From Owenweeksia sp. (GTDB lineage Bacteria; Bacteroidota; Bacteroidia; Flavobacteriales; Schleiferiaceae), in NCBI GenBank assembly GCA_028277105.1, contig JANQHO010000135.1, positions 1 through 42,039 of the forward strand: a stretch of DNA of 42,039 nucleotides. Direction: 5' to 3'. The notes below the pieces were generated by a model that was given only the letters and a program-made list of their open reading frames with translations, had not been told where the DNA came from and searched no databases. Of the stretch, positions 1-14,246 are shown piece after piece. The translations under genes and the position numbers were made by a program. The stretch's first letter is position 1. Each line of letters starts with the position of its first letter.

Positions 1-2237
1 AGTTCCAGATGGAAATCTTCGGATATGTCAAAGTGATAGCTCGCCCTAAGGTTCACGTCAAAAAACGGATCGGAATCGATTAAATCCAAAAAGCCGTCAT
101 CACCTACCACGCGCGGTACAATCATGGAGCCCGTATATGTTCCCGTTAGGTCAAGTTTAAAGGCCTTTGATACATTGTAATAGGAGGTGAAATAGCCGTA
201 AAGATTAGGGTTTCTCACAAACTCATCTACCGCCACCACATTCTCGCTACCTTCTTCTGGCTCAAAAAGCACTTGAGTTTCTTCGTAGCGGGTCTGCTGT
301 GCCGTACCTCCCAACTGGAAAGCGAATTTACTGGAAGGCGAATAGCCAGCTTCAAAATTTACGCCCGATACCGTGGCACCTTCTCCGTTTCTCACTTCTT
401 CTATAATAGAACCATTGGGAAGCACAGCCCCCGTGCTCACTTGGGTGAAGGGGTTTTGCAATTGGGTGTAAAAACCTTCGATCAATAAATTGACTTGCGC
501 CAAACCCATATTTTGGGTGTAGTTCAACGAACTGGTAAAGGCATCTGAAGTTTCTTTGTTCAGATTTTCTGAGAGGATGACAAAAAGCGGCTCACCCCCT
601 ACGGAAGAAATATGCAGGTCTTCGTTGAAGGCCTGTGGGGCACGGAACCCCCGGGCATAGCCACCCCTGAACCTCAGGTTTTCATTTATCTTATACAGCA
701 AAGTAGCTCGTGGACTAAAAACACCTACGTTTACATCTGCCATCCTATCAATACCCCCTATGGTATAAATTCCATCTACATTAGAAATGTCATACCTACC
801 TCCAAGTAGAGCCGTAAACCGTTTGCTTGGCTTCCATTCATATTGAGCAAAAAAGCCTGTTGTATTCACTTGCTGATCAATCAAGCGGTTATACCCCTGA
901 ATTTCATCGCGGGTATCATAAGTCAGGTTCTCGACTCCTGCGGTAATCACATCATTGTTGTAGAAATAATGGTTGTATTGGACCCCTGCCACTACCGCCA
1001 GGTCATCCGTCAAGCCATAAGCATTAATGGCCAGGGTACTGTCTTCAGCTGTCCTTCCGCCACCTAAACCACCGTAGTAGCTATCGCGTTGCGTACTTTG
1101 TGCCGAAGCATAGACGGAGAACTTACTCCGGTTGTCCTTGCTCCATTGCTCGTAATTGATGCCACCAAAAAAGGTATTGTGGTCAAGCTCCTCTGTAATA
1201 TCGGTAAAGTGTGGGGCTAAGTCCAGAAGATTACCCCCTCTGCGGTATTCTTCCAGCGCGCTGAAGTCAACTGTGATTTTACTGCGTTCTCCCGGTTTAA
1301 AAAAAGCTTTTGCTCCCAGTACGGTATTTTCTAGCCGTACCAATTCAGTGAAACCATCTCCGTTGGCGTCATAGCTGTCCCGGTGGCGGCTCATGCCATA
1401 TAAGGTAACCCCGCTGGTCAGATTCTCATTGACAATTGACCCGTTAAAGTTAAATGTTTGATCCAGTGCGTCCCCATCAATAAGGGCCGTATTGGAGCGG
1501 AACTCCCAGGCATTTTCTATCGGGTCTTTGGTGATGATGTTAATCGTACCTGCAATGGCATTCGATCCGTAGAGGGCAGACCCTCCGCTTCGTACAACTT
1601 CTACCCGCTCTACAATATTGGTAGGGATTTGATCCAGGCCGTAAACGCTGTTTAAGGCACTGAAGATCGGGCGGCTGTTGATCAGGATTTGCGAGTAAGC
1701 ACCTTCCAGTCCGTTGAGTCGTACCTGGGTAAATCCACAGTTCTGGCAGTTGGTCTCCACCCTCACTCCAGGCTGGAAATTTAGTCCTTCGGAAACAGCA
1801 ATGGACTGTGTGGCATTGAATAACTTGTTATCGATTACACCTACTACTATTGGAGTGTTTGCCCTGTCTTGTTCGTACCTTGTACCTGATACCACTACGC
1901 CCTCCAGGTTCAAGACATCTTTCTGTAATGAAAAGTCTTTCTCCAGAGATTGACCTCCTTTTACCGTAATCTCCTCGGATATGCTTAGATAACCCAAAAA
2001 CTTAACCTCGACTGTATAAGTACCCGCAGGGATGTTTTTAATGAGGAATCTTCCCTCGCTATTTGTGGCTGATCCCATTTGTGTTCCTTTCAGGAAGACA
2101 TTGGCAGATGCCAAAGGGGCGCCTTCAGAGGTTACTTTGCCCGATAAACTTGCCGTTTGTGCGTGGGCATTGCAGCAAATGACCAGAAGCGACAAAGCCG
2201 CTATGACCTTGGCTTTAAAGTATTGGGATTTTAGCAT
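1..2237 (-). CDS. TonB-dependent receptor (3' end beyond window)
   Basis: Outer-membrane receptor for energised uptake of a metal chelate, haem or similar ligand. The reading frame is open from an ATG at 2237 to the left edge (745 codons seen, no stop), so the C-terminal barrel is cut off. Residues 1 to about 26 form a signal peptide ending in AHAQ. Residues of about 28-110 form a carboxypeptidase-like regulatory domain (GTYTVEVKFLGY). A TonB-box-like segment (GVVVSGTR) follows, then the plug domain with VRLNGLEGAYSQILIN and GGSALYGSNAIAGTINIIT, then beta-barrel sequence. The plug carries a CxxC pair at residues 164 and 167. The gene is divergent from a DtxR/MntR-type regulator, and a palindrome lies in its promoter, so metal-dependent repression is likely. 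The family is certain; the substrate is inferred only as iron, manganese or haem related. Confidence 0.93.
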   Translation of the reverse strand, partial: MLKSQYFKAKVIAALSLLVICCNAHAQTASLSGKVTSEGAPLASANVFLKGTQMGSATNSEGRFLIKNIPAGTYTVEVKFLGYLSISEEITVKGGQSLEKDFSLQKDVLNLEGVVVSGTRYEQDRANTPIVVGVIDNKLFNATQSIAVSEGLNFQPGVRVETNCQNCGFTQVRLNGLEGAYSQILINSRPIFSALNSVYGLDQIPTNIVERVEVVRSGGSALYGSNAIAGTINIITKDPIENAWEFRSNTALIDGDALDQTFNFNGSIVNENLTSGVTLYGMSRHRDSYDANGDGFTELVRLENTVLGAKAFFKPGERSKITVDFSALEEYRRGGNLLDLAPHFTDITEELDHNTFFGGINYEQWSKDNRSKFSVYASAQSTQRDSYYGGLGGGRTAEDSTLAINAYGLTDDLAVVAGVQYNHYFYNNDVITAGVENLTYDTRDEIQGYNRLIDQQVNTTGFFAQYEWKPSKRFTALLGGRYDISNVDGIYTIGGIDRMADVNVGVFSPRATLLYKINENLRFRGGYARGFRAPQAFNEDLHISSVGGEPLFVILSENLNKETSDAFTSSLNYTQNMGLAQVNLLIEGFYTQLQNPFTQVSTGAVLPNGSIIEEVRNGEGATVSGVNFEAGYSPSSKFAFQLGGTAQQTRYEETQVLFEPEEGSENVVAVDEFVRNPNLYGYFTSYYNVSKAFKLDLTGTYTGSMIVPRVVGDDGFLDLIDSDPFFDVNLRASYHFDISEDFHLE

Positions 2238-2262: not shown

Positions 2263-2293
2263 CAAAAATAAAAAGTTAGATTAATCTAACAAA
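2263..2293 (-). promoter_or_regulatory. Bacteroidota-type promoter of the TonB receptor
   Basis: Read on the minus strand, TTTG (2293-2290) is followed after exactly 19 bases by TATTTTTG (2270-2263). This matches the Bacteroidota sigma-ABfr consensus TTTG-N19-TAnnTTTG. The receptor ATG lies 25 bases downstream of the -7 element. Confidence 0.7.
2275..2290. promoter_or_regulatory. Candidate DtxR/MntR operator (16-bp perfect palindrome)
   Basis: GTTAGATTAATCTAAC is a perfect inverted repeat in the 107-base gap between the receptor and the regulator. Its TTAG...CTAA arms resemble the iron boxes bound by DtxR/IdeR-type repressors. It touches the -33 element and fills most of the spacer before the -7 element of the receptor promoter, so a bound dimer should block RNA polymerase. 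It is seen in the sequence; binding by the neighbouring regulator is inferred. Confidence 0.65.
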
Positions 2294-2344: not shown

Positions 2345-3001
2345 ATGGCATCCCCGACTGTAGAAAACTATCTCAAAGCCTTATATACTCTTGCTGATGA
2401 ATCCGGGGAGATTAATCTTTCCGATCTGAGTGTTCATCTCGGGGTAAGCAAGCCTACCGTGAACAGCATGGTGAAAACATTGAAACAGGAAGGATGGGTG
2501 AAATATGAAAAGTACAAACCCCTTAAGCTAACGGAAAAGGGACGGAAGGCGGCAGCCTTGGTCATCCGCAAACATCGCTTGACGGAGATGTTTCTTGTTG
2601 AAAAGATGGGCTTTGGTTGGGAAGAAGTGCATGAAATTGCCGAACAGATAGAACATATCAAGGCCCCTGCTTTTTTTGACCGGATGGATAAACTCATGGA
2701 TTTTCCAAAAGTTGATCCTCATGGTTCACCCATTCCTGACGAAGAGGGTAATATCATAGATCGTAATTACAAAAAACTGAGTGAGTGCCAGGCTGGAGAT
2801 GAGGTAAGGCTTGTTGCCCTGAACCATTCCTCTAAAGAGTTTTTGGAATTTTTGGATAGCCGTGAAATTTCGTTGAAGCTGGAACTTGAAGTAAAGTCAA
2901 TAGAATCATTTGACAATAGCATGTTGGTTAGTTACCATAAGCACCCGTCCGAAACATTAAGCCAGAAGGTATGTGAAAGGCTGTTGGTGGAAAAGGCGTA
3001 A
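2345..3001 (+). CDS. DtxR/MntR-family metal-dependent transcriptional regulator
   Basis: Cytoplasmic metalloregulator that binds DNA when loaded with Fe(II) or Mn(II). The 218-aa length is normal for the three-domain form. Residues of about 1-60 are a winged helix-turn-helix (LSDLSVHLGVSKPTVNSMVK). Residues of about 62-140 are the dimerisation and metal-binding domain with the HRLTEMFL segment, the E-x-x-E-H pattern (EIAEQIEH) and DPHGSPIP. Residues of about 150-218 form a FeoA/SH3-like C-terminal domain. ATG at 2345 opens directly on the HTH domain. It is transcribed away from the TonB receptor, and the palindrome at 2275-2290 between them is the expected operator. Whether it senses iron or manganese cannot be decided from sequence alone. 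Confidence 0.93.
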   Translation: MASPTVENYLKALYTLADESGEINLSDLSVHLGVSKPTVNSMVKTLKQEGWVKYEKYKPLKLTEKGRKAAALVIRKHRLTEMFLVEKMGFGWEEVHEIAEQIEHIKAPAFFDRMDKLMDFPKVDPHGSPIPDEEGNIIDRNYKKLSECQAGDEVRLVALNHSSKEFLEFLDSREISLKLELEVKSIESFDNSMLVSYHKHPSETLSQKVCERLLVEKA

Positions 3002-3392: not shown

Positions 3393-4142
3393 GTGTCATT
3401 GTTGTATGAAAAAAGTTTTAATAGCGTCAGCCTTTCTGGCCAAACCATCATTACCGACCGGCCCAGCCAAACCGAAGCATCTTCCACCGTTCCGGCCGGT
3501 ATGCTGCAGATCGAAAGCGGTTTTTTGTTTCAAAGCGCAGAAAAAGAGGGGGTAGAAACACGCCATTATGTTTACCCCAATGCCTTGTTAAGAGTAGGAG
3601 TAGTCAAGAATTTTGAGTTCCGTTTTGTGACCCAGCAGGAAACCGCTATAACAGAAATAAATGACGCTATAGTTTCTGAAGCCTCTGGTATGAGCAATCT
3701 CCAGGTGGGTTTTAAATACCGTTTGTTTACCGCTGAGGAAAAGCGACCTGAAATAGGCTTTCTCTCGCATTTGGTAGTACCGTCCGGTACGGGAGGACTG
3801 AATAATAACCGTTTTGGCGTGATCAATAAACTGGCAGTCACGCATTTTATCAGTGAAAAATTCAATCTGGCTTACAATATTGGTTATGATTATCTCGGAA
3901 CGGGCAACGGAAACCTGTTTTATTCGCTGGCTTTTGGCTTTAGCCTGAGCAAAAAACTGAGCGTTTTCATAGAACCCTATGGTTTTCTCAACAATCTGGA
4001 AGACTTTGAACTCAATGCCGATGCCGGATTTACCTATCTCTTAAACAACAATGTGCAGTTGGATTATTCCTTTGCCTCCGGCCTCAATCAAACCATGAGC
4101 TACCACGCGGTGGGGATCAGTGTGTTGATGCCTGGGTTTTAG
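3393..4142 (+). CDS. Outer-membrane transporter-like beta-barrel (phenol MetA-deg family), apparent frameshift in signal peptide
   Basis: The long frame has the hallmarks of the PF13557-type family: QTIITDRPSQTEAS at the start of the mature part, VPAGMLQIESGF, then alternating beta-strands such as NLQVGFKYRLF, and a final strand ending in phenylalanine (GISVLMPGF). Its length of about 240 residues fits. The frame itself begins with GTG 3393 and a non-hydrophobic MSLLYEKSFNSVSLSG, not a signal peptide. In the next frame, ATG 3406 begins MKKVLIASAFLA, a typical signal-peptide start that never rejoins the barrel frame and ends at a TAG after about 50 codons. A small deletion or insertion between 3415 and 3445 would explain this. 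The gene could be a pseudogene or the sequence could hold an error. It overlaps the convergent 4139-4561 gene by 4 bases. Confidence 0.72.
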   Translation: MSLLYEKSFNSVSLSGQTIITDRPSQTEASSTVPAGMLQIESGFLFQSAEKEGVETRHYVYPNALLRVGVVKNFEFRFVTQQETAITEINDAIVSEASGMSNLQVGFKYRLFTAEEKRPEIGFLSHLVVPSGTGGLNNNRFGVINKLAVTHFISEKFNLAYNIGYDYLGTGNGNLFYSLAFGFSLSKKLSVFIEPYGFLNNLEDFELNADAGFTYLLNNNVQLDYSFASGLNQTMSYHAVGISVLMPGF

Positions 4143-7461: not shown

Positions 7462-8070
7462 CTATTTTACTACCTTGTATCGGCTGGCTACCTCATCCCA
7501 ATTGATCACATTAAAGAAGGCAGTAATGTAATCAGGTCTGCGGTTTTGATATTTCAAATAATAAGCGTGCTCCCATACATCCAAACCTAAAATGGGGGTG
7601 CCTTTGGTTTCAGCTATATCCATCAAAGGATTGTCTTGGTTAGGGGTAGAAGTAACGTGCAATTTACCGTCTGCCCCTACGATCAGCCAGGCCCAGCCGG
7701 AACCAAAACGGGTAGCGGCCGCATTGCTGAATTCGTTTTTAAAATTGTCAAAGGAGCCAAAAGCTTCGTTGATGGCATCAGCCAGCTCACCGGAAGGGTT
7801 ACCACCACCATTGGGACCCATTACTTTCCAGAAAAGATCGTGGTTGTAATAACCACCGCCATTATTACGAACGGTTCCGGAGTGTTGCGATATATTTTGG
7901 AGGATATCCTCAATAGATTCATTTTCAAGGGAAGTACCTTCGATAGCCGCATTCAATTTAGAAGTGTATCCTGCGTGATGCTTGCCGTGGTGGATTTCCA
8001 TGGTCTGAGCGTCAATATGAGGCTCCAGTGCATCTTTAGCATAAGGTAATTCGGGAAGTTCAAAAGCCAT
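7462..8070 (-). CDS. sodA: Superoxide dismutase, Mn/Fe family
   Basis: Dismutates superoxide to oxygen and hydrogen peroxide in the cytoplasm. The 202-aa length is typical. Metal ligands are H27 (MEIHHGKHH), H77 ([11 protein letters not shown]), D164 and H168 ([10 protein letters not shown]). The outer-sphere glutamine is Q145 in STPNQDNPL, and glycines occupy the site of the FeSOD glutamine. This is the manganese or cambialistic signature rather than a strict FeSOD. It is a single-gene unit with its own terminator, divergent from addA. A TAGCTTTG element (8120-8113) lies upstream. Confidence 0.96.
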
Positions 8071-12851: not shown

Positions 12852-14246
12852 GTGAGAAATAAGTACTTTGATCTGATCGACCAAACTTTTGACTGGCCCC
12901 AGGAAGGTTTTGAAGTAGAAGACGACAATACCCTGAGATGGAATGGTATTTACCTCATGGATATCATTAAGCAGTACGGCACACCTCTTAAAGTCACCTA
13001 CTTGCCCAAGATCAGCGAGCAGATCCAAAAGGCCAAGCGCATGTTCAATGTAGCTATGGCCAAGGTAGGTTATGAAGGAGAATACAATTATTGTTATTGT
13101 ACCAAAAGCTCCCATTTTTCCTTTGTATTGGAAGAAGCTCTTAAAAATGATATTCATATCGAAACATCCAGTGGTTTTGATATCAACCTGATCGAAGCTC
13201 TCTATGAAGAAGGAGATATCACCAAAGACCGGTTTATCGTATGCAATGGATTTAAAAGGCCTCAGTACATTGAGAATATCGCCCGTCTCGTCAATAACGG
13301 TTTTAAGAACACTATTCCGGTTTTCGACAATAAAAATGAGATCAATCAACTGGAAGAACAGCTGGAAGCCCCTTGTAAAATAGGCATCCGTATTGCTTCC
13401 GAAGAAGAGCCCAAATTTGAGTTCTATACTTCCCGTCTGGGGGTGGGCTATAAAGATATAGTATCCTTTTACAGCGAAAGGATTAAAAACAACAAGTTCT
13501 TCGAGTTGAAAATGTTGCACTTTTTCATTAATACCGGTATTAATGATAATGCCTATTACTGGAGTGAGCTTCTGAAGTGTGTGAACGTTTACGTAGCCCT
13601 TAAGAAAGTTTGCCCCAGCCTGGACTCTCTTAACATAGGAGGAGGGTTTCCCATAAAAAACAGCCTTAGCTTCAATTACGACTACGATTATATGGCCGAG
13701 GAAATAATCGCCCAGATCAAACAGATATGCAATAGTGCCGGGGTAAAAGAACCCGACATTTTTACGGAGTTTGGGTCATTTACCGTGGGAGAGAGCGGGG
13801 CGACCTTCTTCTCCATTCTGGATCAGAAAAAACAAAACGACCGCGAGAACTGGAATATGATCGATGGCTCTTTTATGACTTCCCTGCCAGATTCCTGGGC
13901 TATTAACAGGCGGTTTATTCTTTTGGCTATCAACCGTTGGGAAAAGCAGTACGAAAGGGTTTTACTGGGCGGGCTTACCTGCGACAGTGATGACTATTAT
14001 AATAGTGAGCAGCACGCCAATGCTATTTATCTCCCAAGGTTTAGCCAGGAAGAAAAACAATTTATTGGTTTTTTCCACACAGGGGCTTACCAGGAGAGTT
14101 TGGGCGGCTATGGCGGTATCCAGCACTGTTTGATGCCAGCACCTAAGCACGTAGTAATAGACCGTGATAATGAGGGGAATATCCATACTCGCCTATTTGC
14201 CAAAGAGCAGAGTTATAAGAGCATGTTGAAAATTCTGGGCTATTGA
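12852..14246 (+). CDS. speA: Biosynthetic arginine decarboxylase, short alanine-racemase-fold type
   Basis: PLP-dependent decarboxylase converting arginine to agmatine. The 464-aa length matches the short Bacteroidota form rather than the 630-aa E. coli SpeA. The PLP lysine is K85 in YCTKSSHFSF; later landmarks are IETSSGFDINLIEAL, LNIGGGFPIKNS (PLP phosphate glycine loop), GLTCDSDD and FFHTGAYQESLGGYGG. GTG 12852 is the best start; no ATG precedes the first conserved segment. It heads a plus-strand run with a DHS-like enzyme 67 bases downstream. A TATTTTTG element at 12697-12704 might be its promoter, but it is distant and lacks a -33 box. The 231-base gap upstream shows nothing else clear. 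Confidence 0.9.
   Translation: MRNKYFDLIDQTFDWPQEGFEVEDDNTLRWNGIYLMDIIKQYGTPLKVTYLPKISEQIQKAKRMFNVAMAKVGYEGEYNYCYCTKSSHFSFVLEEALKNDIHIETSSGFDINLIEALYEEGDITKDRFIVCNGFKRPQYIENIARLVNNGFKNTIPVFDNKNEINQLEEQLEAPCKIGIRIASEEEPKFEFYTSRLGVGYKDIVSFYSERIKNNKFFELKMLHFFINTGINDNAYYWSELLKCVNVYVALKKVCPSLDSLNIGGGFPIKNSLSFNYDYDYMAEEIIAQIKQICNSAGVKEPDIFTEFGSFTVGESGATFFSILDQKKQNDRENWNMIDGSFMTSLPDSWAINRRFILLAINRWEKQYERVLLGGLTCDSDDYYNSEQHANAIYLPRFSQEEKQFIGFFHTGAYQESLGGYGGIQHCLMPAPKHVVIDRDNEGNIHTRLFAKEQSYKSMLKILGY

Follow-up and report, generated by a model that had tools for sequence, protein, structure and literature searches.

The closest described counterpart of the locus considered here is a module of Stenotrophomonas maltophilia reported in 2026, in which a CQNC TonB-dependent receptor and a periplasmic thioredoxin-fold protein (pTFP) are regulated by MntR (PMC13217887). 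Control of this receptor/pTFP locus is Mn-dependent, with an MntR box between -10 and -35, the CQNC-type receptor is induced by joint Mn and Fe limitation, and the CQNC/pTFP synteny was reported only for Lysobacterales, Sphingomonadales and Opitutales, the main text naming no Bacteroidota (PMC13217887). The one characterised Bacteroidota regulator of this kind that was found, namely PgMntR from Porphyromonas gingivalis, is a DtxR-family Mn regulator with FeoA domain controlling a Mn transporter, and its operator is unmapped, i.e. located no finer than a 385-bp fragment (PMC4805248). In Deinococcus radiodurans, the regulator DR2539 recognises an inverted repeat of the mntH promoter in the presence of either Mn or Fe (PMC3327659). 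Regarding the DNA elements themselves, a single IdeR dimer binds the 14-bp TTAGGNNNNCCTAA (PMC8464063), and sigma-ABfr promoters are composed of a -33 TTTG and a -7 TANNTTTG, the -33 being a weak element in Flavobacterium (PMC6847099).

The window, i.e. the whole stretch of 42,039 nucleotides analysed here (Owenweeksia sp., contig JANQHO010000135.1), resembles the Stenotrophomonas module by the CQNC in the plug of its receptor, by the thioredoxin-fold gene found 3' of the receptor in its relatives, by the nearby Mn-family regulator, by a box lying between two promoter elements and by the linkage of Nramp in some genomes. In contrast to the 25-bp MntR box and -35/-10 promoter of Stenotrophomonas, the Bacteroidota locus displays a putative 16-bp TTAG-N6-CTAA operator, a FeoA/SH3-like domain in the regulator and a sigma-ABfr promoter; besides, the thioredoxin-fold protein carries C-x-Y-C in most Bacteroidota loci instead of CAPC. 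With respect to IdeR/DtxR, the regulator is likewise of the winged-HTH DtxR family and the spacing of TTAG-N6-CTAA is identical to that of the half-site TTAGGNNNNCCTAA, but in the window site A/T takes the place of G/C at base five of either half, an outer G/C pair is added and a second overlapping dimer site is missing, and the regulator has an MntR-like Glu100 rather than Cys102. Of the full 19-bp two-dimer operator TTAGGTTAGSCTAACCTAA (PMC8464063), only the 14-bp half-site geometry is present. PgMntR belongs to the same phylum and is also a DtxR-family protein with FeoA-type domain, but it has twin FeoA domains and an Asp19/Cys108 site and shares an operon with the FB2 Mn transporter. DR2539 has in common with the window regulator a Lys at the Glu11 position (Lys11 here) and an SH3-like domain, and differs by its target and bacterial phylum. 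What is new here is the promoter setting of a probable DtxR-family operator, which would govern a recently described type of receptor.

The gap between regulator and receptor

The features of the divergent locus are collected in Table 1. The gap between the receptor start (2237) and the regulator ATG (2345) spans 107 bp with 20% GC, and the palindrome is 54 bp away from the regulator. Both elements of a sigma-ABfr promoter are present before the receptor gene, which on the minus strand reads TTTG (2293-2290), 19 nt and TATTTTTG (2270-2263). The preliminary description of this DNA had placed a 16-bp palindrome between TTTG and TATTTTTG with 19-base spacing, which direct reading confirms to the base; its wording of a site exactly between the two elements has to be slightly relaxed, as the G of the -33 TTTG is the first palindrome base, and it is the 4-bp distance to the -7, kept among relatives (see below), that stands. 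This distance is the firmer part of the statement because of the weak -33 of Flavobacterium promoters (PMC6847099). Taken alone, the palindrome is a weak statistic and only mildly surprising: one at least as long occurs in 238 of 20,000 dinucleotide shuffles of the 107-bp gap (1.2%), and the number of palindromes this long in the whole 42 kb is not unusual (2 observed vs. a shuffle mean of 1.1). A longer one, the 22-bp perfect palindrome TCATTAATACCGGTATTAATGA, lies at 13525-13546 within the ORF 12852-14246.

Table 1. Coordinates of the features of the regulator/receptor locus in the window.
Feature	Position	Strand	Remarks
TonB-dependent receptor gene	3-2237	minus	CarboxypepD_reg-like domain, plug, barrel; 745 aa seen; cut by contig end
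CQNC codons of the receptor plug domain	1737-1748	minus	context ETNCQNCGFTQ
-7 promoter element of receptor gene	2263-2270	minus	TATTTTTG (TANNTTTG consensus); 4 bp from operator
Putative operator	2275-2290	none	GTTAGATTAATCTAAC, perfect 16-bp palindrome; read directly from sequence
Core of putative operator	2276-2289		TTAG-N6-CTAA, inside GTTAGATTAATCTAAC
-33 promoter element of receptor gene	2290-2293	minus	TTTG; 19 nt upstream of -7 element
DtxR-family metalloregulator gene	2345-3001	plus	218 aa; winged HTH, metal/dimerisation domain, FeoA/SH3-like C-terminus

The assignment of the divergent gene to a DtxR-type regulator, also made in the preliminary description, is borne out by matches to PF02742 (metal-binding and dimerisation; 5.1e-29, 100.5 bits, cut-off 27) and PF01325 (N-terminal winged-HTH Fe_dep_repress; 6.2e-16, 58.8 bits, cut-off 26), the FeoA/SH3-like C-terminal domain PF04023 scoring barely above its cut-off (23.5 bits vs. 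23). ScaR, SloR, IdeR and MntR are among the nearest PDB chains. The primary metal site consists of Asn8, Glu100, Glu103 and His104, and the second-site residues His77, Glu81 and His96 are retained. The Met10 and Cys102 of the iron-specific DtxR/IdeR type are replaced by Asn8 and Glu100 in the window regulator and in all 80 relatives considered below. Neither is the binuclear site of B. subtilis-type MntR (Asp8, Glu11, His77, Glu99, Glu102, His103) found in full: His77, Glu100, Glu103 and His104 are present and Glu100 reads as MntR-like, but the ligands Asp8 and Glu11 have given way to Asn8 and Lys11, so that the regulator sequence does not reveal the preferred metal.

On the other side of the gap, a C-x-x-C is found in the plug of 55 out of the 60 receptors examined. 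Haem and siderophore receptors show a distant likeness to the window receptor, every match falling far below the family cut-offs. The contig end (window 1-3) falls inside the receptor gene and the receptor operon is seen only up to there; among the 80 related loci, a thioredoxin-fold gene (BLAST class) follows 3' of the receptor in 24, Pfam Thioredoxin_7 being confirmed for the protein of locus L074. Downstream of the regulator, 3393-4142 is a probable outer-membrane protein gene for which no NCBIfam match was obtained; its signal peptide MKKVLIASAFLA (ATG 3407) is out of frame with the mature part, the frame change near 3440 being a frameshift or sequence error.

Conservation and fixed position of the site

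For phylogenetic footprinting, 80 loci that encode a relative of the regulator (58-87% identity) were retrieved together with their flanks; in 77 of them the stretch upstream of the regulator reaches 150 bp or more. A match to GTTAG-N6-CTAAC was counted as a site if it lay within 200 bp and deviated in no more than one of the ten fixed bases. Such a site is present in 68 of these 77 loci, in the gap matching that of the window, and is absent from nine, in most of which the regulator has no target on its divergent side. Shuffles of the same 77 upstream stretches contain it in 6 out of 1540 cases (0.4%) and the upstream regions of other genes of the same loci in 8 out of 388 (2%), three of these eight preceding metal ABC binding-protein genes or a receptor, i.e. 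Mn-type targets. Across 59 non-redundant loci, the TTAG and CTAA columns are essentially invariant, with a single exception in one column. The ten fixed columns hold 1.92 bits on average vs. 0.36-0.48 in the flanks beyond the promoter, a figure partly inflated by the selection for at most one mismatch, which leaves the count of 68/77 unaffected. As for the inner bases in the same 59 loci, symmetry is weak at pair 6/11 (complementary in 47, for a shuffle mean of 44) and absent at pair 7/10, and the inner six bases are therefore not claimed as recognised.

The TAnnTTT(G/A) of the divergent gene starts exactly 4 bp past the palindrome in 63 of the 68 site-bearing loci, and TTTG stands at the matching 19-nt spacing to TAnnTTTG in 43 of them. 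Over the same loci, anything from 37 to 144 bp separates the site from the regulator start. Since the spacing is fixed to the -7 and variable to the regulator, the site belongs to the divergent promoter. A composite pattern searched over 395 Bacteroidota genomes gave nine hits, seven of which fall in the gap separating this regulator from its target; as the reversed-pattern control yielded about 11 hits in these genomes, pattern counts alone prove nothing, and the controls of a second pattern count call for the same caution.

Targets of the site and the likelier metal

Of the 80 loci, about 60 have a TonB receptor as the divergent gene, six have a di-haem peroxidase, two Nramp, one a Fe/Mn superoxide dismutase (SOD) and one a ZIP transporter; most of these loci possess the site, which is kept where Nramp, SOD or di-haem peroxidase takes the place of the receptor. 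In Roseivirga, Nramp follows the receptor and thioredoxin-fold gene in receptor-pTFP-Nramp operons. The site is also found at unlinked targets. Three strict ones occur in the genome of Lewinella sp. W8, preceding an ABC substrate-binding protein/ATPase operon, an ABC permease and a receptor-thioredoxin-regulator operon where the regulator comes third. One site was found in Chryseobacterium oranimense, where it precedes receptor-pTFP, and one in Algoriphagus boritolerans, where a di-haem peroxidase-Rieske operon follows it; in each of two more genomes, one stands in front of a receptor on its own. In total, 29 strict sites were tallied in 35 genomes, 23 before such targets and six within genes or a terminator.

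In the Owenweeksia genome itself, the window site is the only convincing promoter site. Nearly all other matches examined fall inside genes; C36:19189 is a terminator stem and C166:26274 lies between convergent genes. A weak match, GTTAGTATACACTAAC at C140:4809-4824, is located 64 bp before a lipoprotein gene (309 aa), has no -7 at 4 bp and is possibly a chance occurrence. The window also contains a Fe/Mn superoxide dismutase gene 5 kb away (7462-8070) with no operator-like site upstream, unlike the relative L096, in which SOD is the divergent target. Neither an Nramp gene nor a ZnuA-type binding protein was found in this genome; a metal ABC permease is encoded on contig C46, in an operon cut by the contig end. 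Such permeases (C46 8348-9613; L190 2317-3606) bear a DtxR-like C-terminal domain, and these fusions occur throughout the window's family of genomes.

The idea that regulator, operator and target can all be read from a single 107-base gap is thus supported, by phylogenetic footprinting as well as by unlinked target sites in relatives. The expectation of a ready motif for a large regulon is not, since most relatives have one to three sites per genome and the Owenweeksia genome a single convincing one; the motif does occur before other iron or manganese genes in relatives (Nramp, metal ABC and SOD loci), which does not extend to the own genome. As for a regulator answering to Fe(II) or Mn(II), the evidence leans towards Mn over iron because of Nramp, the metal ABC transporters, SOD, the MntR-like Glu100 and the CQNC plug motif. 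As the own genome yielded neither Nramp nor a ZnuA-type binding protein, Mn is argued from the relatives.

A second DtxR subfamily (about 40% identity) is encoded before ABC or ZIP metal transporter genes in the window's family of genomes. A perfect TTTAG-N6-CTAAA is located 54-86 bp upstream in 14 of 24 paralogue loci (L013-L036); its core is identical to that of the window-type site and its outer base pair different, which suggests, without proof, that the outer base pair separates the two regulator circuits.

A candidate manganese switch and its alternatives

From the anatomy, conservation, position and targets of the site, we infer binding, repression and the identity of the metal. The palindrome is in all likelihood a one-dimer operator of a repressor responsive to Mn(II), and perhaps also Fe(II), which would block a sigma-ABfr promoter; as the geometry is that of the 14-bp IdeR half-site, one dimer probably suffices. 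When Mn(II) (possibly also Fe(II)) is ample in the cytosol, the metal-loaded dimer of the DtxR-family regulator encoded next to the site would sit on TTAG-N6-CTAA and fill the -33/-7 spacer of the receptor promoter, excluding sigma-ABfr RNA polymerase. When the metal is scarce, the regulator would leave the DNA, the TonB-dependent receptor would be made and the metal imported across the outer membrane. Expression of the regulator gene itself may likewise be adjusted by this dimer. Judged on sequence, it is very probable that the site turns a manganese import system on and off.

With operator and regulator unchanged, the signal could still be mainly Fe(II) and the receptor an importer of an iron chelate, which is rather unlikely. 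DR2539 (PMC3327659) and TroR (PMC2628430), both with SH3/FeoA-like C-terminus, do answer to Mn and Fe, and the distant likeness of the receptor to haem and siderophore receptors, far below family cut-offs as it is, points the same way. Yet the iron ligands Met10 and Cys102 are substituted in the window regulator and all 80 relatives, linkage is with Nramp, metal ABC transporters and SOD, and the CQNC receptor of Stenotrophomonas is Mn-regulated.

The palindrome might instead serve chiefly for autoregulation of the regulator, its place in the receptor promoter being incidental, as it does lie 5' of the regulator start in every positive locus. This is very improbable given that it keeps a constant distance from the -7 of the divergent gene but none from the regulator, that unlinked copies precede receptors, ABC transporters and peroxidase with no regulator following, and that the Lewinella site stands before a receptor with the regulator third in the operon. 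Activation of the receptor from the palindrome, for which there is a parallel in B. subtilis MntR, reported to be able to activate exporter genes (PMC11275975), is very unlikely too: a spacer-filling site 4 bp from the -7 is in a blocking position, and the targets are importers. That the palindrome arose by chance, or forms an RNA hairpin or terminator unconnected with the regulator, deserves next to no credence and is effectively refuted already; in spite of the share of gap shuffles yielding an equally long palindrome, the site is conserved phylum-wide at one spacing amid divergent flanks, is coupled to one regulator subfamily and shows no hairpin-plus-T-tract layout.

Beyond this locus, the repressor reading may extend to a phylum-wide switch of outer-membrane Mn import in Bacteroidota, to which even chances are given, combining a DtxR subfamily, a one-dimer operator in the sigma-ABfr spacer and a C-x-x-C-plug TonB receptor with its thioredoxin-fold partner, with paralogues acting on TTTAG-N6-CTAAA; if true, the differing outer base pair in the ABC/ZIP paralogue circuit would keep the circuits apart. 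Mn passage across the Gram-negative outer membrane is little known. The outcome here is a defined candidate operator, with a regulator and a receptor family recurring across Bacteroidota, and it becomes possible to test directly what C-x-x-C plug receptors and their thioredoxin partners do, in tractable strains such as those of Chryseobacterium or Algoriphagus.
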